Positions 3,345 to 25,842 of a stretch of DNA of 64,000 nt are shown here, piece by piece. Made by a program: the position numbers and the translations under genes. The DNA is from Effrenium voratum (taxonomy: Eukaryota; Sar; Dinophyceae; Suessiales; Symbiodiniaceae): the NCBI GenBank assembly GCA_963377175.1, contig CAUJNA010001757.1:390489-454488 (forward strand), written 5' to 3'. Position 1 is the first letter of the stretch, and each line of letters begins with the position of its first letter. The notes below the pieces were generated by a model. That model worked only from the letters and a program-made list of their open reading frames with translations. It searched no databases and was not told the origin of the DNA.

Positions 3345-4025
3345 TTAGGCCAAGTCAATACCCATTTCAGACCAATTTGATACCAAATTTTATACCAATT
3401 TTATACCAATTTGACACCAATGTTTCCACCAACTTGATACCAATCAATACCAATTTCATACTTGTATATACCACATTTATACCAAATGTATACTCAATTT
3501 ATACCACGTGTATACCAATTTTAAACACATTGTATGCTACATTTATACCAATGTTATACATTGTTGGTACCACATTATACACATGTCATACCACATGTTG
3601 GCTCAGATGTCATACCCAGTTGGCATACAGCTTGTATAAAACAGTTATAAAAAGAGTATGAAATTGGTATGAAATTTGTATATTTCCGGGGATGCAAAAT
3701 TGGTATGAAATCTGGCTCCGCTGTTGGGATTTAATGGATTTATACAAATTTTGCGGCCCAGATTTCATACAAAATTCATGGAAATGTTCACACAAACGTT
3801 GTATCAATTATTCAGATTTTATACAAACGGGGTATGACATCTGAGCCTAAATATGGTATTACATGTGTATAAATGTAGTAACACAAAATGTATAACATTG
3901 GTATGACTGCAGCATACAATGTGTTTGACATTGGTATAAACTTGGTATAACTTTGGTATACATGTGGTATCAAATTGGTCTCAAATTGATATAAACATTG
4001 GTATCACATTGGTATCAACTGGTAC
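3345..4025. repeat. AT-rich foldback (inverted-repeat) element
   Basis: The left half is crowded with ATACCAATTT-like words and the right half with their complement (AAATTGGTAT). Exact inverted arms of 18 bp, starting GGCTCAGATG, lie at 3600-3617 and 3830-3847. Inner arms built on ATGAAATCTGG and CCAGATTTCAT flank a centre near 3,730. The outer ends also pair imperfectly. This is the shape of a decayed foldback or MITE-like unit made of short internal repeats. No coding potential is seen. It separates two parts of a retroelement relic, so it probably inserted there. Confidence 0.7.
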
Positions 4026-6783: not shown

Positions 6784-7084
6784 TGTCTACTCTTACCAGT
6801 GCAGCCTATGTATTTCGGGTTGCGTTCCTGTTTTTATTTTGGTAACTCCGCGGTGCATCAGAGACCCTGGATCACATCAGAACATTGTGCTTTGGTATTC
6901 TCGCCCATCGATTTGGGTTCTTTGGACACGAAACATGCTCTATGCCTGTACCAGGTCGAAGTGCGTGGCCGGATTTTTCAGATGCATATCCATTTGGATC
7001 AACATTTGGCTTGGTTTCGATGGGCCCGGGAGTTCTTGCTCAATGCCCTTAGCCTCGCTGAGCTTTATGCAGGGGGATATGGGG
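6784..7084 (+). pseudogene. 5' fragment of a C5 cytosine methyltransferase gene (motif I)
   Basis: The frame runs open from just after a stop at 6781 to the copia insertion point. Its last codons read ELYAGGYG, the start of DNMT motif I (SAM-binding, usually ...FAGGFGGW...). Joining base 7084 to base 24701, which removes the copia element and one TGGGG copy, gives ELYAGGYGGWSRA in the same frame, a full motif I. The rest of the enzyme lies at 24701-25842. Residues before motif I look like a variable N-terminal region I do not recognise. In life the enzyme would transfer a methyl group from SAM to C5 of cytosine in DNA. Here it is broken by the insertion and by later frameshifts. Confidence 0.85.
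7080..7084. repeat. Left target-site duplication TGGGG
   Basis: TGGGG precedes the left LTR and recurs exactly after the right LTR at 24696-24700. Five bases is the usual target duplication of Ty1/copia integrases. Confidence 0.9.
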
Positions 7085-7435
7085 TGTCAAGAGACGGCAA
7101 GGTGACGTCCCGTGGGACGCTGTCCACCGAACCCTCCAGCTGTAAATACCAACCACGTAGAAAGGTGTATACGGTCAAACCGTTATAGCCGAACCCGTGC
7201 AAATGTTGTAAGGGAGAAGGAATAATAGTTACAACAGTGGTCCTGACAAATGCAGCGCAAGCGAAGTGTTTTCCGCTCTCAATTGCCGATCACGTATGAA
7301 CGCAGCTACACATAAGATCTTGAACCTCACTTGTGACTTGAGCCAAATGGCAATCAATGGAACCTTGTAAGCAACACAAACACGGACCTCAGAACTGCTT
7401 CCCAATTTAGGCACGGGGCCAGGAGGGTTTTAACA
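7085..7435 (-). repeat. 3' LTR (left on the plus strand)
   Basis: 351 bp, TGTCAAG...TTAACA on the plus strand. On the element's own strand this is TGTTAA...TTGACA, with canonical TG/CA ends. It matches 24345-24695 at 349 of 351 positions as I read it. Confidence 0.95.
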
Positions 7436-7447
7436 TCCCCCATTTGG
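7436..7447 (-). promoter_or_regulatory. Polypurine tract
   Basis: On the element strand the bases directly before the 3' LTR read CCAAATGGGGGA, then TG of the LTR. A purine-rich tract in this place primes plus-strand DNA synthesis in LTR elements. It contains one T, as is common. Confidence 0.65.
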
Positions 7448-8060
7448 GTCGCATTGTTCATCATGCGGTCCAAACACCACAAAACGTTCCACTGGCCACG
7501 GCTTCAGCTACGAAACTGTGTCGAACACTCTTTCACTCGCTATCGCTACACCGTTCATTCATTGTGAAACCTGCCGGGTTCGATTGAAGATGAAACATGC
7601 ATCCGCAAATCGTAGCACATTCCCATATGCAGGTGTAATGTATACACTATCGTCACGTCATTTTACAACCATTGAACATCCCAGCTGCCGCATTTGCGCA
7701 TCGCGCAGCCGTCATCCACAGAAATGGGTTGGCCATAGAAGTTCAACAGCAGCGCCTGCTCGTAAGCAATCTGCATATCACCGGCAAAGAAATATCGGTG
7801 AGCAATCAATGCAAAACATAGCCATTCCAGGTACCATGAATAATATATGTAATGAAAAGAGAATCATCCATGAGGTAATAGTTCCATCCATGAATATCCG
7901 GAATGTCATAGTCGTCGGAATATGTAAATGTATACACATCAATTCATCTTGGACGCATGAAATCATATCATGATGTAGAGTCGTTTTATCCCAATGACGT
8001 TGATGAGACGCAAGCAACAGATGGGGACTAGCCCACATCGCGCCGCAATCAACATCTGCA
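7448..8060. other. 3' untranslated stretch of the copia element
   Basis: About 600 bp between the stop of the KptA-type ORF and the polypurine tract. It is more AT-rich than the coding part. Open frames of about 150 codons on each strand show no domain, so I treat them as chance. Confidence 0.5.
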
Positions 8061-10856
8061 TCACGCATACCTGTCCCCAATGGACAGTCTGTGGGTACGT
8101 CGACGGAACTCTTCGTCCAAATTCTTTTGGGCTTCTCGCGCCCGGACACACTTCTTGTTATGATCTTCTGGTATCCAATGCCCCTTTCGGAGGCACCAAT
8201 CCAGCAGAGGTGTGTCGCATTTATTCGGGTCGGTGGCTGCAATAATGGCGCTCACATTGACCGAATAACCATATTTGCCAAGGTTCAAGCCATCCCTTAC
8301 GAACGATATATATTTACAGTTGAAAGCCAGGGAGAAGCATCTGTAAATAATATCACCCACCGGGCGCACGCGATCCTTGACCAGGAGCTTCATTTCGTCC
8401 TTGGTGACGTCGAGGATTCTCGCTGCAATCCACAGCTTGTAGAATATGTATAATCCCTCGCACTTGCACACCATCATACGAATGTATTCTTCACGCTCCT
8501 CAGCCGACCGGAAGATCCTTGTCCGAACATTCTCGGATTGAGAAATCTTCAGTACCGTTGATGGCAAAAGGATCCCTTCCTGATCGTGCTCAGTCATGTT
8601 GGGGTACTTCTTGAAGTCGTTGTGGTAAGGGCAGCTTGGCTTCCCTTCGAGCGCGGCATTGACCGTTCTCTCTTCACCACCTTCGAACATCCCCCACATC
8701 TTTGACATCTGCAGTGCGATGAATCCCGCCATGTATTGAGCTTCGCGCGGCTCATCAAGGCAAATCGCCATCCGCTGGGTATTTATGATATCCCGTGATG
8801 CCAAGTCATTGTCGCGGTATTGCCAACCGCCATCTTCCTCCTCAGACATGCAGCCGGACGTGTATCCTTGCGTGTCCATGTCGTCTTCTTCAGGAACGTC
8901 TTCTGCCTCATCATCCTCTTCCTGTGCTGCCGCATCAAGGTTGGCTTCGTCTTGTGCGCGCCTGGCATCACCCGAGACATTGGGCCTTTGGTGGTCCTCA
9001 TCGTCGTCGGAACTGATGTGGATGTAGAATCTCCCGGTAGAGATCAATTGCGCCCCACATTCCAGGCACACACAGAAGCATGTGGGAATCGCGGTCGCAC
9101 ATGACGGACATATCCGGCACCTCAGTCCTTCCCATGTCTCGTCATTCAGGATGACGACTTTGCTGATCTCGTCCCTGACCTCGTTGGTCTGCGCATCAAA
9201 CTCCTCCATCTTGTTTTCGCGAAATAGTTCGCATGCACGATCAACCATGTCTTTGATGTAGTGCAGATTGTCGGCACCTGCCTCGGTCTCAGGCATCCTC
9301 TCGTTGATCTTCGCGACGTTCTGGAGGAACATCGCAGCCGATTCCTGGGAGGAGTTGACGAAACCCGGACAGATCTCGTTTTCCACACATTTTGAGTACG
9401 CTCGCTTAATGTCCCCGTACTCCAGGCGTTTCCCTCCTTTGCTTTTGCCAATCCAAATGGACTTGACCTCATAGAACGGGATCACGTCAAAGACCATGAA
9501 TGTCCCATTTGCCGCGACTCCAGCTCCATACCGCGCGAGGGTTGCACTGGGAATGTAGATGATCGCAATCGGATCCCCCGACCTTACGTTTCGTAGCGTC
9601 ACCTTCGTTGCTACGTTCATCTCATCCCATGGAGCAAATGCTCCGAAGTGCAATGCTAGCCTGTTTCCGCCATCGATCCCGCCGGGGACTAGCCCACAGC
9701 GTACGATGCTTGGCAGGTTCTCCACATACGTCACATGGAATGCTCCTCCGAGAGAATCACCCATTCTTGCGGAATACCTATTTGCCAGTGCGGATGAGCT
9801 CATGAATCCAAAATCACTGTGACCAGTTGTGACTCGGATGCACCAAGGCCTGTACCATCCATCGCATCTGTTGAACATCCTGTCGATGTCATCCCGATCC
9901 AGGCCAGCATTGTTCATCTCCTCCCTGGCCGCCTTCATGTCATTCGGGTTCATGACGCTTGGAAACCTTGCTGCCAGGACCTGAAATCTTGATTTCTTGT
10001 GTCCGGACTCCTGCCACTTGATCACTTCCATGATGCCCATGTATCGTTTTGCTCTCGAAGTTGAAGGCGGGAATATGTCGTTGTTGCGGTCGTCAATGAC
10101 TGCGTCGATGTCGACCCATCCACCTTCATCGCATCTGAAAACACTTCCTCGGCAATTGCCGATTTTGTGCCGAAGGACTCTGCATAGGTTGTGAGATAGC
10201 TGGTTTGCTTGATCTTTCGTAGCAAATACCGAGCGATCGTTGCCAATCTTGCATAGTGGAGCACCGTCAAAAGGAGCAACGCAGAAATTGACGCTCTTGC
10301 CAAGCTGCAGCACATCCACCTGCTCAAGGTTGGCACCCTTGGGAAAGTACTTGGGGTCAACAATAGACGCGTACGCCCATGGCATATGCACATCACTCAC
10401 GTCGCCGTACTTCGGGATGTAGCATGGGATGGTGTCACACCCTCGCTCTAGCGTCGTCTTGAATGTTCTGTTGTCCCCGCACGGATTGAAGGTGAGGTCC
10501 ACGCCACCGCATTGTAGCTCTCCTCCCTCAGCCGTGTCAGCCATCTCCACCAGGTTGATGGTATAGCTATACATCTCTATTGTCTCTTTCCCTTCTTGTC
10601 CTCCTTTCTTGCGTTCCTTGGACGTCGATGAGGACGGCTCTTCCGTATCCCCCATTTCTTCATCCGAGGAAACATGATCGCTGCTGAGAAGTTCACGGAT
10701 CTTCTTCATCGCCTTCTCATTCCCAGCAGCCTCCTCATGGTTCTTGCAGTCGCCGTCGTGGGCCAGGTTCGCGCATCTCATGCAAATTCCCATCTCTCCC
10801 ATGCACTTTTCCATTGAGACTAGGATTCCGAGTGCCGCTCTCCGCCCATCAATCAC
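8061..10856 (-). CDS. Retroelement ORF with KptA/Tpt1 RNA 2'-phosphotransferase domain
   Basis: 931 residues. Residues about 220-470 carry the KptA/Tpt1 pattern in order: LSHNLCRVLRH, GGWVDIDAV, a KSRFQV block, IRVTTGHS, FHVT (family HGT), a GL motif (CGLVPGG), and NGTFMVFDVIPFYEV near the end. Known family members use NAD+ to remove an internal 2'-phosphate left in RNA by tRNA-type ligation. The segment between RFQV and GHS is longer than usual, and HGT is changed to HVT, so activity is not certain. A Cys-rich zinc-ribbon-like segment (CRICPSC...CLECG) follows at about 578-605, then an acidic linker (about 620-660) and a C-terminal part I do not recognise. The first listed codon is GTG. The frame is actually open back to a TGA at 10968-10970, so the ORF may be the tail of one polyprotein with its upstream neighbour. 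Confidence 0.8.
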   Translation of the reverse strand: MIDGRRAALGILVSMEKCMGEMGICMRCANLAHDGDCKNHEEAAGNEKAMKKIRELLSSDHVSSDEEMGDTEEPSSSTSKERKKGGQEGKETIEMYSYTINLVEMADTAEGGELQCGGVDLTFNPCGDNRTFKTTLERGCDTIPCYIPKYGDVSDVHMPWAYASIVDPKYFPKGANLEQVDVLQLGKSVNFCVAPFDGAPLCKIGNDRSVFATKDQANQLSHNLCRVLRHKIGNCRGSVFRCDEGGWVDIDAVIDDRNNDIFPPSTSRAKRYMGIMEVIKWQESGHKKSRFQVLAARFPSVMNPNDMKAAREEMNNAGLDRDDIDRMFNRCDGWYRPWCIRVTTGHSDFGFMSSSALANRYSARMGDSLGGAFHVTYVENLPSIVRCGLVPGGIDGGNRLALHFGAFAPWDEMNVATKVTLRNVRSGDPIAIIYIPSATLARYGAGVAANGTFMVFDVIPFYEVKSIWIGKSKGGKRLEYGDIKRAYSKCVENEICPGFVNSSQESAAMFLQNVAKINERMPETEAGADNLHYIKDMVDRACELFRENKMEEFDAQTNEVRDEISKVVILNDETWEGLRCRICPSCATAIPTCFCVCLECGAQLISTGRFYIHISSDDDEDHQRPNVSGDARRAQDEANLDAAAQEEDDEAEDVPEEDDMDTQGYTSGCMSEEEDGGWQYRDNDLASRDIINTQRMAICLDEPREAQYMAGFIALQMSKMWGMFEGGEERTVNAALEGKPSCPYHNDFKKYPNMTEHDQEGILLPSTVLKISQSENVRTRIFRSAEEREEYIRMMVCKCEGLYIFYKLWIAARILDVTKDEMKLLVKDRVRPVGDIIYRCFSLAFNCKYISFVRDGLNLGKYGYSVNVSAIIAATDPNKCDTPLLDWCLRKGHWIPEDHNKKCVRAREAQKNLDEEFRRRTHRLSIGDRYA

Positions 10857-10967
10857 TCGCTGCTTCTTCTCTTCTTTCTCAACGTTGGGCTGAGAGCTTC
10901 GCCTCGGGTCTGGTACTTGACCAAGACCGTCACCTTCACTCTCTGTTCTCGGAGTTCTTGCACGTGA

Positions 10968-13900
10968 TCACATCCCGGGATGCACACAATTGCTTCCCGT
11001 GACCGTTATTGTAGAACTGTGCTTGGAATATGCAAGTTCCCGTATGATCGTGGTCATGGCCTGAACATTGTTGACGTCCTCCATGAGATGTTGAAGATCC
11101 GGGATTGCAACCACGCATTCTGCGAAAAGACGTGTGTACAGCTTCCTCCCTTCGGTTGATCTCACAACACCGTTCGTGTCCGCATTCCAGTTCGCGCAAC
11201 AGTTCACGCAAGAAGTGGGATTGAATTTTGAGTTTGACCCGAGCACCTTCGACTTGTTCACCTGCATCTCTCTCACACAAAGTTCGCAGATCAACTCACT
11301 GAGCTCGGTGACCGAATACCATCGAAGACGTTGATCACTGACATCGATGTCCCCAAACGCATCTTGTCCGCCGTGTCCTTCATCCTGCCGTTCTTGCTTC
11401 CGCTTTGATTGAGCAGTGAAGGTCGGCTTGTACTCGAATTTCACCTTCGACTCCTCCATGTCCTTCGGGATATTGAATCGAAGGTCGGGCTCGTTTATGC
11501 ATGTCTTCTCCAGCTCACGCACGAACGCGTTGCTTGGCGCGACCACATCGATGGATTTCTCCACCAACAATCGCTTCAAGAGGAAATGTTGCAGATTCGA
11601 GCTCCCAGGGATCTTGTAGTTCTTACCTGTGAGCGCGTGGGCAACGCGCCACAGGCGATCATTCTCGGTCACCAACGCGCCTGCCGCCTTGCAGATCTCG
11701 CTCACCTTGTTGGCGATCGTCCCCAAGTCCCCTCTTCCTCCATGGAAAGCTACGTCGCGATTCACGCACACCACAACCAAGCCCCTGCACGTGTTGACGA
11801 GGTCGGATATCGTCTTCTGCAAGGAGTCAATGATGGGGTTGGCGGTCACCTGCCACCCACACCCTCTCATGCACACCCAGTCATAGAGCGACATCCAAAT
11901 GTGTACCGACACAGGTGAGTCATCCATGTCTCGCCTCCGTCGTTCGACGATGAGCTTTTCCAGTTTCTGCAATCGGGAGATGATGCTCATCGTACCTGCG
12001 GACGAGGAGACTTGCTCACTCGAACCGTAGTACGATTTCTCCTCGATGTTTGTCCATCCCTGTTCGTTGACCATCATCTGGAAGGTCTTCGTGCTCCCTT
12101 TCGCATTGACAGCCCTCAGGGGCCAATCCAGGACCAAGAAGCTCTTCTTCTGAATCATCATGTCGCGAATCGTCGCCCCACCAATGGGGCCCCTTTTCTG
12201 ATCCTTGATGATCCGGATCAACCGTCCAGGTGCGTTGTCTGGGTTCTTCTCTGCCTGGATCAACGCGTTGATGGCTTTGGCGCCCGGAAGGCGTCCAGTA
12301 ATCAAGCATCCTGTTTGGGCACACATGAAAGCATACAGCTGAAGCCATGCCGCATTCCCTTTTCCAACATAGGAAAGAATGATCTTCTCCGCGCTGGTCT
12401 TCTCCTCGAAATGTAACAGCGAAGAAGTCAGGCATCTCAGCATACACTCCCAATATGTCGCGTTCTTCCCGTCTGCGAGACACGGCCCAAATACAGTTTG
12501 TATGATTGGGTACCCTGTGTTGGCGTCTATGTTGAACTTCACGTTGACAGTCGCGCCACTCAGAGTAATACCCTCTTCGAATGAGGTGTATGTGTCGAGT
12601 CCAGCAGTTGGGTTGATGATTGTCCATCGGTCATCATCACCACCGGAGTTCATGCGGAATATGGAGTCGATGATCTCGTTGTCGATCTTGACGGCATCGC
12701 TTGCATACGACCCCCCACTTGAAGCTCCCTGCTGGGGGACTGGCCCACCAGAGGTTTGGCTCCTTTGCCCGGAGCTCGACGCTGACTTCTGCTGTCGCTC
12801 CGTCTTCTGCGGCGGTTCCGTCTTCGATGAACCCATTACCCACCACGTCGGCTCCTCTCCGATCACGAAGTCCTCGGGGTACCTCTCCAGTTCCCTGTCG
12901 GCTTCGTTAACGGTGCAATAGGCGTTCTGGTAGAAGTCGATCACGTTGTCCTTCTCCGCCTTCTTCTCGATCTCCTTCAACCAGCTTACCCACTTGCGCC
13001 GATCTTGGTTCTCAGCGGCCCTGTCAGCCGCGTGTGGCGCCAAGCTGATGGAGTTAATGTTCATCGCAGGCAGCGTTGATTTGTAGATCATGTCGATGCA
13101 CCACAGGAAGTTCCTGGCGACCCCGATCTCCCGATAGAGGTCCTTCAGCTCATTCTTGTCCTGACGGAAATAAACTGTGTACGACTGATCTGTAGCATGC
13201 CTTTCTCCGACCAATGGCTGCAATCTCCTCATGATAAAGGAAACGCACATAAGTGAGTTGATTGCCCCAATGCATGCGTCAGAGATGTCGCTGGGGGTTG
13301 ACCCACAGATCATCCAGCGCAAAAGGTTGTGCTGGTGAGCTCTTTCATCTCTTCTCATTGCATACGCGAGGTTCTTCATCGACGCACGCAGCTCATTCTG
13401 GTAGGCCAGCCCAAGGTCCCAATTCTTCTGGTAGTCGTCTTTTGCGCCACGGCCGTAGAAGTCAAGCCTGGGAGCCTTGATCACGCTCAACGTGAACACC
13501 TTCCCCCAGTTTCGATCTCTGAACTTCGAAATTCTTCGATCATGCCTTTCGAACTCTGCAGTTGTCAGAAACTCCTCGGAGCTCCTCCACCTTCTCGACG
13601 ACGAGGTTCTGGTTGGTTCATCGCTGATGAACTCCTTGTAGACTTCCCCGACCGGAGTGTCTTGGTGGAACGCAGCTTTGAAAGACCGTTCTTCATTGTC
13701 CTCGACCACACCTGATGCGAGATCCCAAATATCTGCGATGGATCTCAACATATCTGCCCCTTCGATGCAATACTTGGTGACGTTGAGCAGTTCAGGATTC
13801 TTTACTAGTAGTGATGCCTCACCGCAAAGCTGGTTCAGCGCCGCCACAATCTTCTTCCCTTTGCTGCAGAACTCCCTCCAACCCAGCATGCATTCGTCAG

Positions 13901-16900
13901 CAGAAAGTTGTCCGAAAACTTTACTGATAAACTCCAATGCAACCCTCATGGATTGCCCTTCTCCTTTCATCATTCCGCGGCACTTGGCAGAGTAGTACGC
14001 TGAGTAGGCGTAGATACCGGGGACGCCAATGTCCTCGATCCACTTTATGCCCATACCCAGGTCGCTGCCCATTTCCATTCTCTTGGGGATTCTCTTGCCT
14101 TCCTCGATGGCGTTTTTCACGAGGTTCCCCAAGAATATTGCCGCTTGCCTGGATTTCCCAACAGGCACGCAGAAGAATTCATTCGTATTGACGACGGTCG
14201 CATTGGCAGTCATCTTGATGATATTCTCCAGAACCGGGAAAACCCAAAATAGGCAGCTGCAAATAAAGCCACAGAATAGTCCCAATAAGCGCCCAGCTTC
14301 TAATTGAGGTGCGGGACTGGCCCAACTCCTCTTCGAAACTTGAGGTTCGGGACTAGCCCAGCTCCCCTTCGGAACCAGAGGTTCGGGACTAGCCCAGCTC
14401 CTCGGTGGTACAGTCGGGGTGGTGCGAATCTCACACGCAGCAGCTTGATGCTTCCGCGATCTCCCTCGCGTAATGCAAGCAAGAGCGAGTTTCAATGGTG
14501 CCGGCTGAAGGCACTTTGCTCGAGCACGAAAACGACGGAGGATCACACCCACAATTAACGACGTGTACAACTGGGTTTCTTTGGTTTCCCGACCGGCACA
14601 GGGTCCATGCTCATGGTTTCCATTACACTTCTTAGACAACGAGCTGCCAAGGTCAAAGTTCCACGAAACAACTCTCCATGGTTTCTTGACTGGCATGGGT
14701 TTCTTAGCATACCTTTGCTTCAAGCCATAGCGACACCCATCAAACTCATGACTAATGCCATCATGAACAACCTCATGCAGTCTCTCATCCTTCCAATAAT
14801 CGCAACTTCCAGGCAACTCATACAAAATCGCAGCGCGTTTCGTCATGGCATGCCGTTTGATTTCAACGAACCGTTCAAACAATTTCCAAAATTCCTTCTG
14901 TTTGGCCTCGATTTTCTCTGCGGTGTCAACTCCGCGAGTCTTGTTGAGGCGTGCCCATGATGATCCCCCCGTGCAAGGCCCGGCGAAGAACAACAAATCG
15001 GAAGGTTTAGTAAGCACATGTCTGGCGATTCTCCCCCCGTACTCGCTCAGTAAGTCATCGACCAAAGTAATGGTGACGACCTGCGGCCCGTTATGGCGGG
15101 CAAGGGCAGTGAACCAGTTACGCGGTTCGGAACATGCCATCAGCACAATAGGCCGAGCCAAGTCAACACTGTACAAAGTGACGACTGTGCGAGTTCTCAT
15201 ACCAGGAAGCGAGACATGCACCGGAGCGCGAAGCACACCACCGTCATGTTTAACCATCGCGAGCTCAATACCCGGCGCTAACTGTGGTTTGTGCTTCACC
15301 GCAATGCGATATGGAACAAAACAACGACCAGGAACGTGTTGCTCATGACTGGTATGCAGGCAACGCATAAGCAGCTTCAACCGGAGCAACGTTTCCAAAG
15401 CAAGGTCATTGACACACTTTAATTCAATGCGCTCGTTCGACAGTTCTTCAACGAATGCGGCCAGCACGGACTGCATGTCAACATCCCCGGACCCGACGTG
15501 AATTGGTCGTGGTCGTGGAGATTGCTCCCGCGCCGGTACAGCAACCGGTACGGGATGAAACTGCCAAACTGCGCGTTCAACCCACCCATCAATCCGCTCA
15601 CACTGCAACCCAGGGTCGACCCTGTCCTCAACTTTGAGCCATGACCCGTTCCTCAGAAACCAAGTGGAACGAAGCCACTTGCTCCCGAATGGTGTCACAA
15701 CCGCGAGTGGAGGTTTCACACGCATCAATCTGGGTCCTTTGGCAACGACAACCGGATCATGTCCTTCATGCTCATGCAATCCTTCTTTGGATGTCAATCC
15801 GGACCACCACAGGTCCGGGGGCATGATCGGAATGTGTGTGTACGGAAATGTGGGAACTCCGTCAACCGTTCCCGAAGCAGTCTGCATGGTCCCTTTTATG
15901 GGATCACACGTAGGTGTGAGCGCCTTGAGGGTATCCGGGTCAGACAGCAAGCTCGGGTCGAGTAGACCAATCTGCAAACATGCATGTTTCCATTTGCGTC
16001 CATCATTGAACGCCTTGGTGTAGATGTCAGCCGCCATTCTGTCGGTGACCTCATACGCCAAATACATGTAATCACGTGTGAACATCTCATGCATCCACGA
16101 AATGCAAACACCATGGCTTCTCTCAAGGTGGCGCATCGTGGGGTTTCTCCCCGATCGCACGACACCGATCATAGCCTTGTTATCGTCATAGAACACAAAG
16201 TTCGGTGACTTCTTGAGAATCCGCTGCAACAACTTTAGAGCAGGCATACCCATCGCTCTCATGGCAACATCGGCCGCAACAATTTCGGCCTCAGGAGTTG
16301 GGTGACTCACACAACCCTGTCTTTTTGAGCTGCCAGACAACGGAAACCGAGTATTAGGCCCTTGTATGTTCAAGTGTCCACCAGAGGTGGAACGTAGCGA
16401 GTCGACACATCCTGCAAAGTCAGCGTCCGCATACAAGGCCAAGTGCACATCATCCATGAAGTCTCCGACCCAACCGACCATGCGCCAATGTTTCGTATGA
16501 TGTACATAGCACATCAAATGATGCAAACCCCGATCATCGGAGTCAGTCCACCTGTGCACATTCCGTGCCAGGCGATTCACTTGCCGCAACAAATCGAAGC
16601 GGGCAATCCGCGCACCGTACAGCAACTTCATTAGTACGCTAGCGGCATGCGGAGCAAGGTGTCCACGCACGGGCTCCTTCATGGCCAACTCAGGAGTCCC
16701 TCCCCGCTGGTCCGGCACTGTGGCAGAACCGTCGGTGGGCACAAGATTGTTACACCAATTGCACACGACTGACGGCCCCTCTTTGGCAGGCTTCCGTGAG
16801 ACGTGATTCTTTGTTTCTTCATGCAACTCAGGAGTGACAACCTTATTCAACTTTACGTCGCCCGCCACCTCAAGATAGCGGTCGACACAGGAACGTAGGA

Positions 16901-17174
16901 ACTGTTCCATGTCATAGGTCACCGTTGTTACGCGGTGTCCGTTCCCGAGAGTGACGTTTCCCTTGCTTTGGTTACAACCAAGGTACATGTCAAGTCCAGT
17001 CTCGGGCTCTATCTTCAAGCGTGTACGTAACATGCTCCATCCCTGGGCAAGGTTCTTTTGCGGCCCTGCCATTTTGAAGTCGTCGACGTACACAACCAGA
17101 ACAAGCTGGAGCTTTTCATGAATGTACACTGACGGCCATTCCTCACCGATGGGTTCGAAACCAACGGCGCGCAC
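10968..17174 (-). CDS. Copia RT C-terminus, RNase H and long accessory polyprotein
   Basis: 2068 residues. It opens within RT: VVYVDDFKMAGP holds the catalytic YVDD at about residue 30. RNase H follows at about 255-390, with TPEAEIVAADVAMRAMG, VFYDDNKAMIGV and MAADIYTKAF. A first accessory domain (about 650-900) holds FFAGPCTGGSSW, ELPGSCDYW and KKPWRVVSW. Three WASP-type repeats follow, then a hydrophobic segment (about 960-980) that could span a membrane. About 1,080 more residues have no family I know. Near the C-terminus there are Cys pairs (CELC, CVNCC) that might bind zinc. The RT start lies in another frame in the ORF at 17015-20641, so RT is split. Older copies of the accessory part exist at 4260-6320, 37100-38000, 38456-38689 and 40850-41210, which shows it is an inherited part of this family. 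Confidence 0.85.
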   Translation of the reverse strand: MRAVGFEPIGEEWPSVYIHEKLQLVLVVYVDDFKMAGPQKNLAQGWSMLRTRLKIEPETGLDMYLGCNQSKGNVTLGNGHRVTTVTYDMEQFLRSCVDRYLEVAGDVKLNKVVTPELHEETKNHVSRKPAKEGPSVVCNWCNNLVPTDGSATVPDQRGGTPELAMKEPVRGHLAPHAASVLMKLLYGARIARFDLLRQVNRLARNVHRWTDSDDRGLHHLMCYVHHTKHWRMVGWVGDFMDDVHLALYADADFAGCVDSLRSTSGGHLNIQGPNTRFPLSGSSKRQGCVSHPTPEAEIVAADVAMRAMGMPALKLLQRILKKSPNFVFYDDNKAMIGVVRSGRNPTMRHLERSHGVCISWMHEMFTRDYMYLAYEVTDRMAADIYTKAFNDGRKWKHACLQIGLLDPSLLSDPDTLKALTPTCDPIKGTMQTASGTVDGVPTFPYTHIPIMPPDLWWSGLTSKEGLHEHEGHDPVVVAKGPRLMRVKPPLAVVTPFGSKWLRSTWFLRNGSWLKVEDRVDPGLQCERIDGWVERAVWQFHPVPVAVPAREQSPRPRPIHVGSGDVDMQSVLAAFVEELSNERIELKCVNDLALETLLRLKLLMRCLHTSHEQHVPGRCFVPYRIAVKHKPQLAPGIELAMVKHDGGVLRAPVHVSLPGMRTRTVVTLYSVDLARPIVLMACSEPRNWFTALARHNGPQVVTITLVDDLLSEYGGRIARHVLTKPSDLLFFAGPCTGGSSWARLNKTRGVDTAEKIEAKQKEFWKLFERFVEIKRHAMTKRAAILYELPGSCDYWKDERLHEVVHDGISHEFDGCRYGLKQRYAKKPMPVKKPWRVVSWNFDLGSSLSKKCNGNHEHGPCAGRETKETQLYTSLIVGVILRRFRARAKCLQPAPLKLALACITRGRSRKHQAAACEIRTTPTVPPRSWASPEPLVPKGSWASPEPQVSKRSWASPAPQLEAGRLLGLFCGFICSCLFWVFPVLENIIKMTANATVVNTNEFFCVPVGKSRQAAIFLGNLVKNAIEEGKRIPKRMEMGSDLGMGIKWIEDIGVPGIYAYSAYYSAKCRGMMKGEGQSMRVALEFISKVFGQLSADECMLGWREFCSKGKKIVAALNQLCGEASLLVKNPELLNVTKYCIEGADMLRSIADIWDLASGVVEDNEERSFKAAFHQDTPVGEVYKEFISDEPTRTSSSRRWRSSEEFLTTAEFERHDRRISKFRDRNWGKVFTLSVIKAPRLDFYGRGAKDDYQKNWDLGLAYQNELRASMKNLAYAMRRDERAHQHNLLRWMICGSTPSDISDACIGAINSLMCVSFIMRRLQPLVGERHATDQSYTVYFRQDKNELKDLYREIGVARNFLWCIDMIYKSTLPAMNINSISLAPHAADRAAENQDRRKWVSWLKEIEKKAEKDNVIDFYQNAYCTVNEADRELERYPEDFVIGEEPTWWVMGSSKTEPPQKTERQQKSASSSGQRSQTSGGPVPQQGASSGGSYASDAVKIDNEIIDSIFRMNSGGDDDRWTIINPTAGLDTYTSFEEGITLSGATVNVKFNIDANTGYPIIQTVFGPCLADGKNATYWECMLRCLTSSLLHFEEKTSAEKIILSYVGKGNAAWLQLYAFMCAQTGCLITGRLPGAKAINALIQAEKNPDNAPGRLIRIIKDQKRGPIGGATIRDMMIQKKSFLVLDWPLRAVNAKGSTKTFQMMVNEQGWTNIEEKSYYGSSEQVSSSAGTMSIISRLQKLEKLIVERRRRDMDDSPVSVHIWMSLYDWVCMRGCGWQVTANPIIDSLQKTISDLVNTCRGLVVVCVNRDVAFHGGRGDLGTIANKVSEICKAAGALVTENDRLWRVAHALTGKNYKIPGSSNLQHFLLKRLLVEKSIDVVAPSNAFVRELEKTCINEPDLRFNIPKDMEESKVKFEYKPTFTAQSKRKQERQDEGHGGQDAFGDIDVSDQRLRWYSVTELSELICELCVREMQVNKSKVLGSNSKFNPTSCVNCCANWNADTNGVVRSTEGRKLYTRLFAECVVAIPDLQHLMEDVNNVQAMTTIIRELAYSKHSSTITVTGSNCVHPGM
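14313..14396 (-). repeat. Three 36-bp repeats carrying GGGACTRGCCCA
   Basis: Near-identical units start at 14313, 14349 and 14385, each with GGGACTGGCCCA or GGGACTAGCCCA. In the ORF they encode a WASP phrase. Single copies of the same 12-mer occur elsewhere in the element, at 8024, 9685, 12736 and 19923, with a variant at 22664. Confidence 0.8.
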
Positions 17175-20100
17175 CGATTCATCAGACAGTGCTGCTCCCA
17201 GAATGTTCCCGCATCTGGGTGTCCGTACAGCGCCTTCCTCAATGGAACGACTGGTCTCCTGTACTTACCCCATTTGCATTCACTCGGCACAGCCTCTGGT
17301 GGCAATTCAATCCAACATGGCGTGCCTCTCAGTGTGGCCTGGATGTACGCTTGAACAGCGTCGGCCATCTGCACATCCCAACCATCATGACAACCCAAAA
17401 AATCCGCCCAACGCGAGGCCTCAAACGAAGCAGGAGAGTTCCCCAAATCTTGAAACATCGCAGCTTCAAAGCTTTGATTCTTCACTTGGTTCCCCAGCAA
17501 CACGCCTCTACCCTTGAACTTCCTCTTAGGATCACCAACAGGCAACTGTGAGTGCTTTTCAACACAAATACCATGTGCGCGAGCCATGTGTATCTCTTCC
17601 CCTTTCGCTTTTGCCTCCTTGGCCACAGCGTCATATTCCTGCACTGCGCCAAGGTCGAAGACGGCCTGGTCGATTAATCCCGACCATTCTTTCTTCATTG
17701 ATGCCAACGCATCAGGGTTGGTCAGCATTTCCTTCCGGCCAACCGGTCTGGACACTAAAGCGTCGAAGAATCGTACAACTTTTACGGCTTTCTCTCTGTG
17801 CTGTATTCGCTCAGAAGTCACGCACGGCATCGATGGGTATTTCTTGGCTTCACCGTTTTCTCCTATTGCGGGCAACGCGAGTGGCACTTTTCCAGAAACC
17901 ACCTCAGCAGACTCCTCCCATTCATACCAGGTAAAATCCGTCGATGCATCGACCGTTGGATCTGTCCCCGATGTCGTCTCAGCTTCGTCTTTCTGACGCT
18001 CTATGACTGATGCAACTGCCTTCGTCCAATTTGGAGTCGATTTCGACCGCTCCTCAGATTTGAACTTCCAGGCGTAAATTACTACCAGACACGAAAATTC
18101 TTTTTCAAGCTGAACGTTTCGTCTCAAGACGTCTTGGGATTGCTTGGAATCCATGAGAACAACCACTCCGTCAACAGGATTTACAACTATCCTGACCCAA
18201 TCAAGCTCAGCCAAGTGTTTCCCATCCATTGGGTTCTTGATCTTTGATATGTTCTTCCGCAATCCCCAATTGTACTGCCATTCAACTCCACCCCAGCGGT
18301 TTCGAAGCATTGCTCGAATTCTCTTACCACCGGGCATCTGCAATGTCTGTGCCTCTGCCGGCGCAGAAATCTCAGATTCCTTACTTTTGGGGTCTTCTTT
18401 CTTCTTCTTGCCACCGCCCTTCACCTCGGCCTTTTCTTCCTCGGTGTAGTATTTCCTCATCATTGCCCATTCATCGGGAGTGTATTCTGGAGGTCTCGTC
18501 GTCTTCATTAACCTGAAGCCATCTTTCCCGACAGGATATGGTCTTCCGGCCTTGTCGATCTTAACCTCCTTGCCATCGTCGTTGATGTACGTTATGCCGT
18601 CCCCAGGTAGTCCAGCTGACACATGTGGAAGGTCGGGCTTCGTAATCTCTTCGTCGTCCTTGGCATGTCCATCCCCTTTCCCTTTTGATGAGCTCGGTCT
18701 AGCATCCTCTTCTTCTACATGGCCCCCCCGACCTCCGACAAGTACTTCCGGACCATCGTCAAGCAGCAGACCAGCGATCTGATCGACCTCATTGTCGAGC
18801 AGTCGCTTCTCGTCACTCTGCAATAACTCGGGCTCGTAGTCCTCATCTTCGATCAGGCGATCACGTGCATCCAGACCGATTGCATCGACAGACATCTCAA
18901 TCCCCTCCAAAGTCTCGTTGGCAGCCTTGTACTTCCGTTGTATTGGGAATGTTAGAGGTGACTTGAGAATCATCCTCTCCGTCTGATGTGGCATTCTCAA
19001 TCGAGGTGGAACCTTTGCTTTCTTGATGTTCAATTCTGCACCTGCAAACGCAGTGAGGGCCCAAGCCCGATACTTGTTCGCCCAATGCATCCCGGTGCTC
19101 AACACGTATCCAGCAAATATACCGGTTTCCCCTCTTGGTTCGAATTTCTCCCTCTTCTCTCCTCGTGCTTCACTCGGCTTGAAGTCTACTAGCGCACCAA
19201 AAGGTATCTTCTCGCCTTTGAACTCCTCGCCATGCAGCCTCATCCAAGCGCTCGATCCATTTACTTCTTCAATGTTCATAAGATGGCACAGCGTGGTGAT
19301 GGCCTGCACCCAGTAGCACGTGGGTAGACCGGCATGTACAAGACAAGCCGAAGTCTGGTCAATGATGAATTGGTTTGTTCTCTCAGCAAGGGAATTATTC
19401 TGCGGTCGTCCAGGCAGCGACAGGTCGTGGTTCAGTTTCAGCTCCACGCATGCATTGATCAGTTCCGGGCCATCATCCGAGTATACCTGCTTGATCTTCC
19501 TCCTCCCGCAGAAGTGTTTGATGGCCCTGACGACGGAGTCAGTGTCTCTTCTCGCAGTTGGATAAGCCATGATAATTCCGGTATATATGTCCCGAATAAT
19601 AAGCGCATACCTGCCTTCCACTTCATGATCTCCTGATGCCGTCACAAAGTCGAACGTCACCAGGTCCCCGAACGTCTTTACCTCCCTCTTGAAGGCCCCC
19701 GTTCGTGATCTGAAGTGTCTCATCTTTGCCTTGACGCATGATTCGCAGAAAGGGTTTCGATACCTGTGTGTAAGCAAATGAGCAATGGAGTTGGCGTCCC
19801 TCTTGAGGACTCCCACTTTCCTCTTTATTGATGATCCTTCGTACACATCAACTTCAATTCCGGCATCTGGATCATCCTCATCAACCTCTTCCTCGTTAGC
19901 TTCGGCATCATCATGTCGACGCGGGACTGGCCCAACGTCTACAGGTATTTCCTCAGCTACGGGAGGCGGACGTACCGGACCGGCTCCTCCGGGTGGTCCG
20001 AAGTCAAACGCACCATCATGGCGCTCGCCCTCGACCTCTGCGGATTCACCGACAGCGGCGGGTGTGACCTCGTTGTCATCGTCGCCATCCTGATCTGCCG

Positions 20101-20641
20101 CATCGTTCGTTACCATTGCCAATACTTCCGAAAAGTGCTCCTTGAGGTCGTCTACCGTAGGGCGATGCCTGTTACTCCGAAGTTTACCATCACTCACGAG
20201 GTATGGGATGTCGTCCTTGACTTGTAAGTGCACGAATCCCTGCTTTGGTGTAACCATGAAAGGTAGTTTACCAGGCATCCAGTGAAATGCATAACCCATT
20301 TTCATGCATCTCCTCCCTACCGACAACACCGTGGGTGTCTCGTCCAACACGTGCGGCTCGACAGTCTCGTCCAACTCGTCCACGACTATCTTGGCCACAT
20401 CGGACGTGGAAGTGGAACCATTTGCGGTCTGAAACACGATCTCATCATCATCCTTCACAATATCGACACCCAGACTCTTTGCCTTGGCTCTTCCAATGAG
20501 ATCATGACCACATCCGGTGTCCATCAACAACTTCACCCGTTTGCTGATGCACGTTGACATTGCGAACACATTCTTCGGCAAACCATGCTGTTTCTTCCAA
20601 GTCGACTGCCGATTCCTTGATCTCGTCCTTGTTCCGATCAT
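17015..20641 (-). CDS. Copia protease, integrase and N-terminal RT
   Basis: 1208 residues. The aspartic protease active site LLMDTGCGHDLIG is at residues 38-50. The integrase has an H/H...CESC zinc-binding motif near 290-305. Its acidic triad is formed by FDFV, YSDDGPEL and NSLAERTNQ (about 325-430). An acidic linker follows, then the RT N-terminal half, with ADAVQAYIQATLRG and KALYGHPDAGTFWEQ near the end. Integrase before RT is the copia order. The frame overlaps the upstream gag ORF by about 140 bp and is +1 relative to it. It overlaps the downstream ORF by 160 bp with a -1 (or +2) shift that falls inside the RT domain. The methionine listed is simply the first in the frame. The protein is more likely made by frameshifting from gag. 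Confidence 0.9.
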   Translation of the reverse strand: MIGTRTRSRNRQSTWKKQHGLPKNVFAMSTCISKRVKLLMDTGCGHDLIGRAKAKSLGVDIVKDDDEIVFQTANGSTSTSDVAKIVVDELDETVEPHVLDETPTVLSVGRRCMKMGYAFHWMPGKLPFMVTPKQGFVHLQVKDDIPYLVSDGKLRSNRHRPTVDDLKEHFSEVLAMVTNDAADQDGDDDNEVTPAAVGESAEVEGERHDGAFDFGPPGGAGPVRPPPVAEEIPVDVGPVPRRHDDAEANEEEVDEDDPDAGIEVDVYEGSSIKRKVGVLKRDANSIAHLLTHRYRNPFCESCVKAKMRHFRSRTGAFKREVKTFGDLVTFDFVTASGDHEVEGRYALIIRDIYTGIIMAYPTARRDTDSVVRAIKHFCGRRKIKQVYSDDGPELINACVELKLNHDLSLPGRPQNNSLAERTNQFIIDQTSACLVHAGLPTCYWVQAITTLCHLMNIEEVNGSSAWMRLHGEEFKGEKIPFGALVDFKPSEARGEKREKFEPRGETGIFAGYVLSTGMHWANKYRAWALTAFAGAELNIKKAKVPPRLRMPHQTERMILKSPLTFPIQRKYKAANETLEGIEMSVDAIGLDARDRLIEDEDYEPELLQSDEKRLLDNEVDQIAGLLLDDGPEVLVGGRGGHVEEEDARPSSSKGKGDGHAKDDEEITKPDLPHVSAGLPGDGITYINDDGKEVKIDKAGRPYPVGKDGFRLMKTTRPPEYTPDEWAMMRKYYTEEEKAEVKGGGKKKKEDPKSKESEISAPAEAQTLQMPGGKRIRAMLRNRWGGVEWQYNWGLRKNISKIKNPMDGKHLAELDWVRIVVNPVDGVVVLMDSKQSQDVLRRNVQLEKEFSCLVVIYAWKFKSEERSKSTPNWTKAVASVIERQKDEAETTSGTDPTVDASTDFTWYEWEESAEVVSGKVPLALPAIGENGEAKKYPSMPCVTSERIQHREKAVKVVRFFDALVSRPVGRKEMLTNPDALASMKKEWSGLIDQAVFDLGAVQEYDAVAKEAKAKGEEIHMARAHGICVEKHSQLPVGDPKRKFKGRGVLLGNQVKNQSFEAAMFQDLGNSPASFEASRWADFLGCHDGWDVQMADAVQAYIQATLRGTPCWIELPPEAVPSECKWGKYRRPVVPLRKALYGHPDAGTFWEQHCLMNRCAPLVSNPSVRNGRQCTFMKSSSLFWLCTSTTSKWQGRKRTLPRDGACYVHA

Positions 20642-22082
20642 ATTCGAACATTATGCTGCTCTCCTTGGTTACTGGGAAGTAGTGCTTCTTGTACACGTCG
20701 TCCACCACCTCTCTCAGTATCCTCGCTCTTATCAATGATCGTTGGACTTGATAGGCTGATAATTCTCGATGATCACTGCTCTTGAACTTCTTCTCGTCGA
20801 CGTGCACGTACTTATAAGGCTCATTCTCATTGTCCTCATAGCCGTACCACTCCCCTTTTCGTTCCCATTGCCTTCTCTCGTCTTCGAGATAGGTGATCTC
20901 CCCATTCTCGTCGACTTCGAGTACTTCCTTGAACCATACCATTTTCTCGGGGATCTCGGACTCGCCAGACCATCTTGATGATTCGCTCATTGCGTCGTCA
21001 TCATGCTCGTGGTAGACAGTCTCGGCTTCATCCGGTTCGACCTGGTCAACGTCCTTCTTGAAGCTGACCTTTCCCGCAGGAGCCGATTGCTTCAAGACTA
21101 TCGCAGGCATCGCGATGGCCCTTCTTGCAATAGCTGGCGCTGCGGCCTTGGCGGCAGCCTTCGACTTGGCTTGTGCCTTGTCGCTTGATGTCGCCGGAGC
21201 TGAATTGTTCTTGATGAGCTCGTGCCTATACTTGCAAGCACTCCCCTTGTCGCATTTTCCCTTCTGGAACGCGAAACATGCCCCATCATCCCTCTTTGGT
21301 GACGATGATCTGGATTTGGACTTACCTTTTCCTTTCCCTTTGGACATGTTCTCCAGCTTGTGCTCCGTCTTCTTGCTGTGGGAAAAGTTGCACTCATTCC
21401 CTTTTACGCACCCCTTCGCTGACTTGAAGTGGTACCAACATGGGTTATCTTTACCTCCACCCGGACTCTTGCCTCTGTCGCTGGCACCGTCGGACTTGCC
21501 GTTCTTGCCAGCGTGACCCTTTGCTTTGGCCTTTGGGAGTACAGGAGCAGCATCAGGTCCACTGGATTTCCCCTTCCTGCCTTTGCCACCCTGGTTCTCC
21601 TGTTTGCCAGTGGCCGGGGCTGCATCTCTGCCGCCCGACTTCATCATCGACTTGACCGATTTCTCCTTCATGTCAAGCATCAGGTCCTCCCGATCCGCCT
21701 TGATCTGATGGTCGATCAATGCCAACAAGAATTCGTACGTCTTTTGAGGATGCTTGTCCGGCAATCTATGGTAGGCGTTGAGGCCGAACTCCATCTTCTT
21801 GCTCCCTTTGATCTTCCTGTAGAGAATATCTCTGAGAGCCAACTTGCTGGGTCTGTCTTCGCTCCTCATCTTTAGCAACAAATCATACCACTTGTTCCTG
21901 AATATAACCAAATTCTTGTCTCCAGGAAAGTCAAGGTTGAATAGGTGCTCGATGTGGTAGACAAGATCCGTTCGATCAGAAGTTCTGAATGATTGCATAA
22001 CCAATGCCACCAACTCTCGTCCCTTCACGATCACCCCTTGTTGATGTCGTAGTTCCGAATGTCGCGTAGCGTCGAGGTACAC
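20502..22082 (-). CDS. Copia gag, second part, with two CCCH zinc fingers
   Basis: 526 residues. The N-terminal 150 residues are helical and capsid-like. About residues 210-290 hold two fingers, C-X9-C-X5-C-X3-H (starting CWYHF) and C-X7-C-X5-C-X3-H (starting CFAFQKGKC). Most copia gags instead use a CCHC knuckle, so the RNA-binding module differs. The finger region is embedded in Lys/Gly/Ser-rich sequence. The listed start is a GTG. The frame is +1 relative to the coiled-coil gag and continues smoothly from it near 22,090, so it is probably expressed as a gag extension. Related relics lie at 36720-37080 (finger) and 41223-41520 (capsid-like part). Confidence 0.85.
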   Translation of the reverse strand: MYLDATRHSELRHQQGVIVKGRELVALVMQSFRTSDRTDLVYHIEHLFNLDFPGDKNLVIFRNKWYDLLLKMRSEDRPSKLALRDILYRKIKGSKKMEFGLNAYHRLPDKHPQKTYEFLLALIDHQIKADREDLMLDMKEKSVKSMMKSGGRDAAPATGKQENQGGKGRKGKSSGPDAAPVLPKAKAKGHAGKNGKSDGASDRGKSPGGGKDNPCWYHFKSAKGCVKGNECNFSHSKKTEHKLENMSKGKGKGKSKSRSSSPKRDDGACFAFQKGKCDKGSACKYRHELIKNNSAPATSSDKAQAKSKAAAKAAAPAIARRAIAMPAIVLKQSAPAGKVSFKKDVDQVEPDEAETVYHEHDDDAMSESSRWSGESEIPEKMVWFKEVLEVDENGEITYLEDERRQWERKGEWYGYEDNENEPYKYVHVDEKKFKSSDHRELSAYQVQRSLIRARILREVVDDVYKKHYFPVTKESSIMFEYDRNKDEIKESAVDLEETAWFAEECVRNVNVHQQTGEVVDGHRMWS

Positions 22083-22095
22083 GTCTTTGGCTTCG

Positions 22096-24246: not shown

Positions 24247-24332
24247 TGTACCGTGTAGGCTATTGTCCCTTTATTGTCCTTGTACCCGCAATAAACCAGC
24301 TGTCTCTCTGTCCATTGTAGAGCTTGTCGATA

Positions 24333-24344
24333 CGGCTGATAACC
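24333..24344 (-). promoter_or_regulatory. Possible primer-binding site
   Basis: On the element strand the bases right after the 5' LTR read GGTTATCAGCCG. This partly resembles the TGGTATCAGAGC of many LTR elements primed by initiator Met-tRNA. The likeness is partial and I cannot check it against the organism's tRNAs. Confidence 0.35.
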
Positions 24345-24695
24345 TGTCAAGAGACGGCAAGGTGACGTCCCGTGGGACGCTGTCCACCGAACCCTCCAGC
24401 TGTAAATACCAACCACGTAGAAAGGTGTATACGGTCAAACCGTTATAGCCGAACCCGTGCAAATGTTGCAAGGGAGAAGGAATAATAGTTACAACAGTGG
24501 TCCTGACAAATGCAGCGCAAGCGAAGTGTTTTCCGCTCTCAATTGCCGATCACGTATGAACGCAGCTACACATAAGATCTTGAACCTCACTTGTGACTTG
24601 AGCCAAATGGCAATCAATGGAACCTTGTAAGCAACACAAACACGGACCTCAGAACTGCTTCCCAATTTAGGCACGGGGCCAGGAGGGTTTTAAGA
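24345..24695 (-). repeat. 5' LTR (right on the plus strand)
   Basis: 351 bp, matching 7085-7435 except at 24469 (c for t) and at the terminal 24694 (g for c). The second change breaks the TG end on the element strand. It would contain the element's promoter, but no TATA-like site stands out. Confidence 0.95.
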
Positions 24696-24700
24696 TGGGG
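24696..24700. repeat. Right target-site duplication TGGGG
   Basis: Exact copy of 7080-7084, immediately outside the right LTR. Confidence 0.9.
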
Positions 24701-25842
24701 GTTGGTCTCGCGCTGTTCATGCATTGTCGGGAATCAGGACCAATTTGGAAGACCGTCTTGGCTATTGAACACCAAAGATTGTTCGCTGCCAATCATGACT
24801 TTGTGTTGCTTGATGGGCCTTGCCATAGTAGTCACCTTGAACCTGGAGCCAGTGGCTGCCTGATCGGCAACGTGACGGTCAGCATGTGTCCAAGCAGGCC
24901 GCTAGCTTTTCAGGATTTGAGGCATCACCGCCATGTCAGCCTTGGTCAGGTGCGGCCCGTCAGAATGGACTGGCAGACATCCGAGGTATTGAGTCTCTCA
25001 ACCTGTTGCTCATCATGCGGGTGCCCAGGGTTCCATGGACTATGCTTGAGAATTTCAGAACCATTGTTGAGCACTCCCACATGCCCTTTCTTCGCATGGC
25101 TTTTCGTTGGTCGGGCTTCTTTGTCAAGTGGGAACAGGTGAGCCAGCTCTCGAAGTTCAGGCCATTGTCGCGGACCAGATGGCTTTGTCTACTGCTAAAC
25201 TGCCAAGCGGCTTCGTGTATTGATGCATCTATGATTGCAATGCCTACCCAATTTCCACGCAGTCCAGAATCAGCTCATGTGCTCGATATTGGATGCAGTA
25301 TGTACATGCACCCGTCCATGTATCCGCCCGATGAAGTCTTGGACAAGTATGACAATGGCGATTGGTTGCCTTCCGCAATGGGCAAATCGCTTACAGGAGC
25401 CATTCAGAAGCGTGTGCATTTGGCACAGAAGCCCTTTGCGCCGGTCATGGCTTCTTATACCACATCTCACTTGTTTTCGGATGACCTGCCCCGCAACAAG
25501 GGATTGTACGGGCTCATTTTTGACCCTATGCACACTGAGGGCCGGGATCGCAGACACCGTTTCCTCTCGCTGGTGGAGATTGGTCTCGCGCTCGGGGTTG
25601 ATACCAAGCTCATCTTGCCTGTGACACTTGAGAGTTCACCACTGAAATGGGCGTATCTCATTCTTGGAAACTCCTTGTCCATGTGCCGGGCGCTGGAAGT
25701 TTCGCGCGTGTTCAGGCGATTTTTGACAGTACACAGCAGAGAACCGGACCGGATCCGTATGAGATCTTTTCCAGATGCACGCAACAATGCCTTGACCTCA
25801 GATCCATTTGCATCAGTCAGGATTCGACCAATCTTGTTGTGA
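24701..25842 (+). pseudogene. Main part of a C5 cytosine methyltransferase (LINE-borne)
   Basis: Continues the motif I half at 6784-7084. The sequence completes GGWSRA, then shifts frame. An AIEH segment near 24,760 could be motif II. From 24,886 a 318-residue open frame carries ASPPCQPWS (motif IV, with the catalytic Cys), LENF (motif VI), PLSRTRWL (motif VIII), RRHRFLSLVEIGLALGV (motif IX) and ILGNSLSMCRA (motif X), in canonical order. Between VIII and IX lies a target-recognition-sized stretch with VMASYTTSH. At least two frameshifts plus the copia insertion inactivate it. Downstream LINE parts on the same strand suggest it belonged to a non-LTR retroelement. I recall published DNMT-carrying retrotransposons from dinoflagellates, which fits, but I cannot place this copy within them. 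Confidence 0.88.

Follow-up and report, generated by a model that had tools for sequence, protein, structure and literature searches.

Introduction

Captured enzymes in retrotransposons are already known from the available sections of two earlier reports (PMC5890265, PMC9289625). In Symbiodinium, SymbioLINE-Dnmt and SymbioDIRS-Dnmt3 reflect the recurrent capture of a DNA-modifying enzyme into the open reading frames (ORFs) of long interspersed nuclear element (LINE) and DIRS retrotransposons (PMC5890265), and in orchids, an m6A RNA demethylase domain is carried by Ty3/gypsy elements (PMC9289625). KptA, in turn, has been described within the polyproteins of a Beihai picorna-like virus and a Botrylloides leachii nidovirus, as well as in phages (accessible part of PMC9503650). 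Here, we describe a long terminal repeat (LTR) retrotransposon of copia domain order from the dinoflagellate Effrenium voratum that carries a Tpt1/KptA RNA 2′-phosphotransferase domain. The element lies on the minus strand at 7085–24695 of a 64,000-nt stretch of contig CAUJNA010001757.1 (positions 390,489–454,488; hereafter the window, in whose numbering coordinates are given). We propose that the domain, which is predicted to be active, uses NAD+ to strip 2′-phosphates from RNA that the reverse transcriptase (RT) copies or extends, a reading to which we assign a probability of about 0.5.

The comparison with these systems is instructive in both directions. The Symbiodinium elements likewise show recurrent capture with conservation of key residues, but they involve a DNA-modifying enzyme in LINE and DIRS contexts; Symbiodinium copia elements are described without any DNMT domain, and the word “phosphotransferase” is absent from the main text as far as it was available (PMC5890265). 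The orchid elements also combine an LTR element with a captured RNA-acting enzyme, whereas enzyme, superfamily, and host differ (PMC9289625, available sections). The viral KptA domains likewise sit inside the polyprotein of an RNA-based parasite, yet one without reverse transcription, and “retrotransposon”, “transposon”, and “retroelement” are absent from the accessible main text of that report (PMC9503650). No paper on Tpt1 in a retrotransposon was found by title or abstract in the open-licence literature, which agrees with an earlier note on this DNA whose author knew of none.

The chemistry of the enzyme family frames the proposal. According to the sections available, metal-independent RNases leave cyclic phosphates that are opened to 2′-phosphates, and fungal-type ligases leave a 2′-phosphate at the seam, which Tpt1 removes with the help of NAD+ (PMC6333775, PMC9503650). 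Tpt1 is conserved also where its job is unclear, and its knockout in E. coli or mouse is described as being without phenotype (PMC6333775, in the part available).

Results

The Tpt1/KptA domain comprises residues 205–485 (9402–10244, minus strand) of a 931-aa ORF in the 3′ part of the element (8061–10856, minus strand). The motifs that the earlier note had listed are found in the named places: LRH (R229-H230), GWVDID (246–251), RF (R290-F291), TTGHSDFG with H346, HVT (H374-V-T376), and NGTFMVFDVIPF (450–461). Pfam family PF01885 (PTS_2-RNA) matches residues 217–426 (9579–10208) at E = 1.2e-7 and 32.4 bits, the cut-off being 26, and when the window family is compared, profile against profile, with a set of bacterial KptA, the host enzyme, and one LINE domain, the match has E = 2.8e-7 at a probability of 93. 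A first structure model of the domain was poor (predicted local distance difference test score 42.7); in a Foldseek search with a domain model of modest confidence, each of the top 21 chains belongs to Tpt1/KptA, the best at E = 3.1e-5. The profile match confirms the proposed identity, and the structure comparison is consistent with it. The NCBIfam equivalog model is reached only weakly (14.3 bits against a cut-off of 239) and a phmmer search of PDB sequences returned no Tpt1, so that the domain, judged by its sequence, is a divergent member of the family.

With yeast Tpt1, mammalian TRPT1, and bacterial and archaeal KptA the window domain shares the Pfam family, the order of motifs, the Arg-His-Arg-Arg tetrad, and the HxT motif, but it sits in a retrotransposon polyprotein, contains an extra insert of about 40 residues, and has HVT instead of HGT as its NAD+ motif. 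Identity to the host and Proteus enzymes is 22–24% in the alignments made. The tetrad is present as Arg229-His230 (10167–10172), Arg290 (9987–9989), and, by alignment, Arg425 (9582–9584), and the histidine of the NAD+ motif is His374 (9735–9737; all minus strand). All 11 window-type copies compared conserve the tetrad and HxT, and an alignment of 23 rows across families shows no change at R229, K288, R290, H374, or T376. The domain is accordingly described here as predicted to be active.

The window type is abundant in the host genome (1.156 Gb in 3699 contigs searched). Among 49 copies scored out of 2788 first-look candidates, 46 have no stop inside the match; in two, the frame stays open for 5244 and 5562 aa and thereby spans nearly the entire internal region. 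In other copies, the upstream ORF runs on into the Tpt1 ORF without a break. LTR copies at 99–100% identity (40 scored of 1758 candidates) form pairs 16.6–17.9 kb apart on five contigs, and 23.6 and 35.8 kb apart on two more. For the window and ten genome copies picked from the stop-free ones among the 49 scored (55 pairs), the mean ratio of replacement to silent substitution rates (dN/dS) is 0.139 in the Tpt1 domain, 0.128 in the N-terminal flank, and 0.123 in the C-terminal flank; for a LINE family described below (family I) the domain value is 0.049, in a sample of mostly best-scoring sequences (10 sequences, 45 pairs). These ratios indicate that the Tpt1 domain is under purifying selection.

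Tpt1 capture is not a one-off, because the domain is also carried by a second copia family and by LINE elements. In a genome search with PF01885, all 150 matches scored, out of 558 first-look candidates, exceed the cut-off; a few are pieces of one copy (as on C491), and the window type, at 32 bits, is not among them. The matches were grouped by eye on score, profile span, and length, and 10 loci of about 20 kb each were read. In family I, a LINE family, Tpt1 (147 bits, partial domain) lies in an ORF of about 2000 aa, behind which a 1505-aa ORF contains endonuclease and RVT_1 (C1668, the one locus of this layout on which Pfam was run); the same layout is seen in C1591 and, with the second ORF split, in C3367. 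An OTU protease was considered for this family, but with 14.6 bits in P0134, where the cut-off is 23.3, and no match for L002 the region is OTU-like at most. A diverged relative of family I (S, on C1386) also has Tpt1 ahead of endonuclease and RVT_1. Exo_endo_phos and RVT_1 both exceed their cut-offs in C1668 and C1241, and in C1386 RVT_1 does so while the endonuclease falls just under.

The order is different in the LINE-like families II and IV (C1241, C1796, C3272, and C1984), where Tpt1 follows an AAA_30 helicase-like stretch that is under the Pfam cut-off in four of four loci. RNase H lies farther upstream in C1241 and C1984, and endonuclease and RVT_1 still farther upstream in C1241, the only one of the four loci whose RT region was read; for family IV, the sequence read covers just the RNase H and helicase-like domains. 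An integrase-like ORF (21.7 bits, under the cut-off of 32.6) lies upstream of the C1241 LINE. Family III (C3246 and C3199, the latter locus containing 5000 Ns) is an LTR element of copia order with 145-bp repeats 11.4 kb apart; in C3246, a 2589-aa ORF that has CCCH fingers and a sub-threshold RVT_2 match (18.7 against 31.6 bits) precedes a separate 1114-aa Tpt1 ORF. Long accessory regions, mostly of unassigned domains, flank Tpt1 in these elements (L010, L021, and L015/L016) and include the helicase-like domain of families II and IV. Near the family II element on C1796 there is an additional, diverged window-type Tpt1 sequence (L018, 6902–7657; 48% identity over 152 aa).

In a tree of the Tpt1 domains the families stay unresolved, and one shared origin for the 15 element rows is compatible with the data (p-AU 0.455), for which reasons we do not count captures. 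The domain would have entered the LTR and LINE classes separately or moved between them, since these are different classes and Tpt1 precedes the RT in one architecture but follows it in others. Among annotated proteins, the E. voratum protein P0027 matches the end of the window domain. Symbiodinium microadriaticum P0142 is named tRNA 2′-phosphotransferase 1, and its close relative P0141 represents 46 sequences; the two exemplify a multi-copy Symbiodinium-type protein of about 600 aa in which Tpt1 is accompanied by a second stretch weakly resembling ADP-ribosyltransferases (PARP, 15.5 against 26.7 bits).

The predicted primer-binding site of the window element is the 14-nt sequence GGTTATCAGCCGTA (24331–24344, minus strand), directly behind the 5′ LTR. 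It was seen in three copies, namely the window element and the family III loci L019 and L021, in which it is identical while the sequences diverge beyond it. Its complement, UACGGCUGAUAACC, would be nucleotides 27–40 of a tRNA with the loop CUGAUAA, and the site is complementary to these nucleotides of host tRNA-Ile(AAU) if the wobble base is read as G: the complementarity ends exactly at nucleotide 27, and the single mismatch is at wobble position 34. A standard tRNA primer paired through its 3′ end does not apply, as the sequence behind the 5′ LTR does not start with TGG, and a nuclear tRNA with anticodon GAU is ruled out by the G34 form of the hairpin having no match in the genome. The A34 hairpin TACGGCTAATAACCGTA, predicted beforehand, is found five times (control 0), and the exact A34 complement 14 times genome-wide (control 2), 5 of the 14 at A34 hairpins. 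ARAGORN calls tRNA-Ile(AAT) in two of the five A34 loci (L048 and L049); the other three are, by eye, truncated or altered copies.

Modification of A34 to inosine, which is copied as G, would explain the mismatch at position 34. Because the site matches nucleotides 27–40 and the mismatch is as expected from copying inosine, we predict priming by an internal fragment of cut, mature tRNA-Ile that ends at C40, and the wobble base may serve as a sequence-level signature that this primer derives from a mature, modified tRNA. Drosophila copia is primed by a half-tRNA, a fragment of tRNA-iMet, and there too the primer-binding site is complementary to the anticodon arm and not to the tRNA 3′ end. The element described here differs in its use of tRNA-Ile(AAU) and in the wobble-base signature of inosine; we know of no Tpt1 in Drosophila copia.

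The earlier note's designation of the element as a copia retrotransposon agrees with its structure. The 17,611-bp element is delimited by a 5′ LTR (24345–24695) and a 3′ LTR (7085–7435), both 351 nt long and on the minus strand, which differ at two positions, one of which converts the opening TG of the 5′ LTR to TC. Apart from this TC, the Ty1/copia hallmark of an LTR pair with TG..CA ends and a 5-bp target-site duplication is present, the duplication reading CCCCA in element sense on the left (24696–24700) and right (7080–7084) sides. In element order, all on the minus strand, a 716-aa ORF in gag position (22096–24246, no Pfam family over the cut-off) is followed by a 526-aa ORF (20502–22082) with a CCCH zinc-finger-like stretch around 21186–21347, whose Pfam matches are under their cut-offs (best 28.3 against 29), and by a 1208-aa pol ORF (17015–20641) with aspartic protease-like (20396–20542), integrase core-like (19403–19615), and initial RVT_2 (17189–17521) sequences. 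A 2068-aa ORF (10968–17174) holds what remains of the RT together with the RNase H region, then sequence in common with family III (about 14502–15185), and an unassigned accessory region of about 1000 aa, after which comes the 931-aa ORF. The protease, integrase, and RVT_2 matches are all under Pfam cut-offs (RVT_2 11.5 against 31.6 bits), and the copia assignment is based on their order and on 30–42% identity between the window and family III pol.

The window copy carries some damage. Its pol is frame-shifted in the RT near 17.0–17.2 kb, and it lacks about 160 codons between the last two ORFs (two shared motifs are 57 codons apart here and 219 codons apart in P0009 and P0023). The frame of the 931-aa ORF reported earlier is real, but its GTG is not a natural start, as judged from the copies P0009, P0018, P0021, and P0023, in which the frame extends upstream and is fused to the preceding ORF. 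The stretch at about 14502–15185, behind RNase H, has 27% identity over 237 aa between the window element and family III and belongs to no Pfam family; it looks methyltransferase-like by eye (PCTGGSSW, ELPGSCDYW), but a DNA methyltransferase was rejected as Pfam found none there. Just past the 5′ LTR, on the plus strand at 24886–25842, lies a fragment of a C-5 cytosine DNA methylase (PF00145, 23.2 bits against a cut-off of 22), possibly a piece of another element. Nested inverted repeats with arms of 93 and 65 nt (85% and 82% complementarity) are located at 3470–3979.

Discussion

How could a 2′-phosphotransferase be of use to a retrotransposon? Several things are read from sequence: the element, delimited by LTRs and a target duplication; the Tpt1 domain, which has the tetrad and is under purifying selection; the occurrence of this domain in other families; and the tRNA-Ile site. 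From these we infer the following RNA events. Host or element RNases would cleave element RNA and tRNA-Ile, and the resulting cyclic phosphates would give rise to 2′-phosphates, either at the broken end or through resealing of the RNA by a fungal/plant-type ligase. Produced within or beside the polymerase polyprotein, the Tpt1 domain would remove them inside the particle or ribonucleoprotein, and cDNA synthesis would then start at the tRNA half and proceed across repaired templates. LINEs use no tRNA primers, and template cleaning would therefore be the role common to all families, with primer cleaning as a possible extra role in the copia families. The idea of a 2′-phosphate on the primer now has something definite to build on, namely a primer-binding site that indicates an internal fragment of tRNA-Ile.

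Would a 2′-phosphate hinder reverse transcription? The earlier note held that it would stall the enzyme, and this stands in part. An RNA-sequencing protocol adds Tpt1 and NAD before reverse transcription since a 2′-phosphate “can interfere with reverse transcription” (available text of PMC10287922), but with a commercial RT and RNA from tpt1-mutant yeast, primer-extension products reach past the 2′-phosphate junction (available text of PMC6456296), so that any block would be partial. In favour of the proposal, one stretch of the host genome matches the fungal-type tRNA ligase CPD domain (37.6 bits against a cut-off of 23).

Besides the partial block, several observations weigh against the cleaning of 2′-phosphates. 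The ligase domain PF09511 has no match in the genome, in a search in which the controls were silent too, and RtcB, which belongs to a pathway that leaves no 2′-phosphate, is matched. A 266-aa single-domain protein on C276 (L001), nearest to mammalian Tpt1, is probably the host Tpt1 gene, and with such a gene a private copy in the element is not obviously needed. Tpt1 contacts the 3′-phosphate neighbouring the 2′-phosphate (PMC6333775, in the part available), so that an internal junction would fit the enzyme better than a free primer end, which weakens primer cleaning. Furthermore, H230 is kept in 21 of 23 aligned rows, both family III rows having G, and R425 in 22 of 23, the window-type relative P0073 having K. 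The copies used for dN/dS were also selected from best-scoring, stop-free ones.

The domain could instead be an active ADP-ribosyltransferase with another use, marking 5′-phosphate ends of RNA or cDNA or countering a host defence based on NAD+ and ADP-ribose. Tpt1 has the ADP-ribosyltransferase fold, our model resembles DarT and PARP domains as well, at lower scores, and, by their titles, solved structures of KptA complexes with 5′-phospho-ADP-ribosylated DNA exist. Systems of NAD+ and ADP-ribose recur in virus–host conflict, and a few polyproteins of RNA viruses contain KptA (PMC9503650, accessible part). The conserved residues, however, are those of 2′-phosphate recognition (R229, R290, and R425, and H230 except in family III) together with the NAD+ motif, and we regard this other use as unlikely. 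It is also conceivable that the domain is a non-catalytic RNA-binding or structural piece of the polyprotein, given how divergent the window type is (32 bits, 21–25% identity to other aligned domains) and given the loss of the tetrad histidine in family III. That the tetrad arginines and HxT are nearly invariant amid much other change makes us strongly doubt it.

A narrower possibility is that the copia domain serves the primer only, acting on the 3′ end of the tRNA-Ile half, and that LINEs have the domain for a separate reason. Two diverged copia families do have a common internal tRNA-Ile site, and priming there calls for a cut tRNA whose end can be extended. Yet LINEs, in which Tpt1 is strongly constrained (dN/dS 0.049), use no tRNA primer, and Drosophila copia has a half-tRNA primer without, to our knowledge, carrying Tpt1; together with the contact of Tpt1 to the neighbouring 3′-phosphate (PMC6333775, available part), this makes a primer-only role quite improbable. 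Finally, host Tpt1 transcripts might have been swept into retroelements by chance and carried without benefit, as retrotransposons do acquire host sequences and the data are compatible with one origin for all element domains (p-AU 0.455). The dN/dS values of 0.139 and 0.049, saturated silent change alongside about 28% replacement change between families II and IV, and four architectures among the loci read leave this hardly credible.

Removal of 2′-phosphates from RNA that the RT copies or extends is thus the reading that we prefer for the window element. More tentatively, at somewhat less than even odds, we suggest that LTR copia and LINE elements recurrently captured Tpt1 as a companion of their RT, to clean the ends and scars of their own RNA, including a primer cut from inosine-bearing tRNA-Ile. 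That selfish families keep Tpt1 under strong constraint suggests that reverse transcription in vivo is affected by 2′-phosphates or by whatever else Tpt1 may do to RNA. This raises the testable question of whether cells damage and reseal retroelement RNA, and whether elements mend the scars. If true, the scars of RNA cleavage and ligation would be an arena of conflict between hosts and their retroelements.

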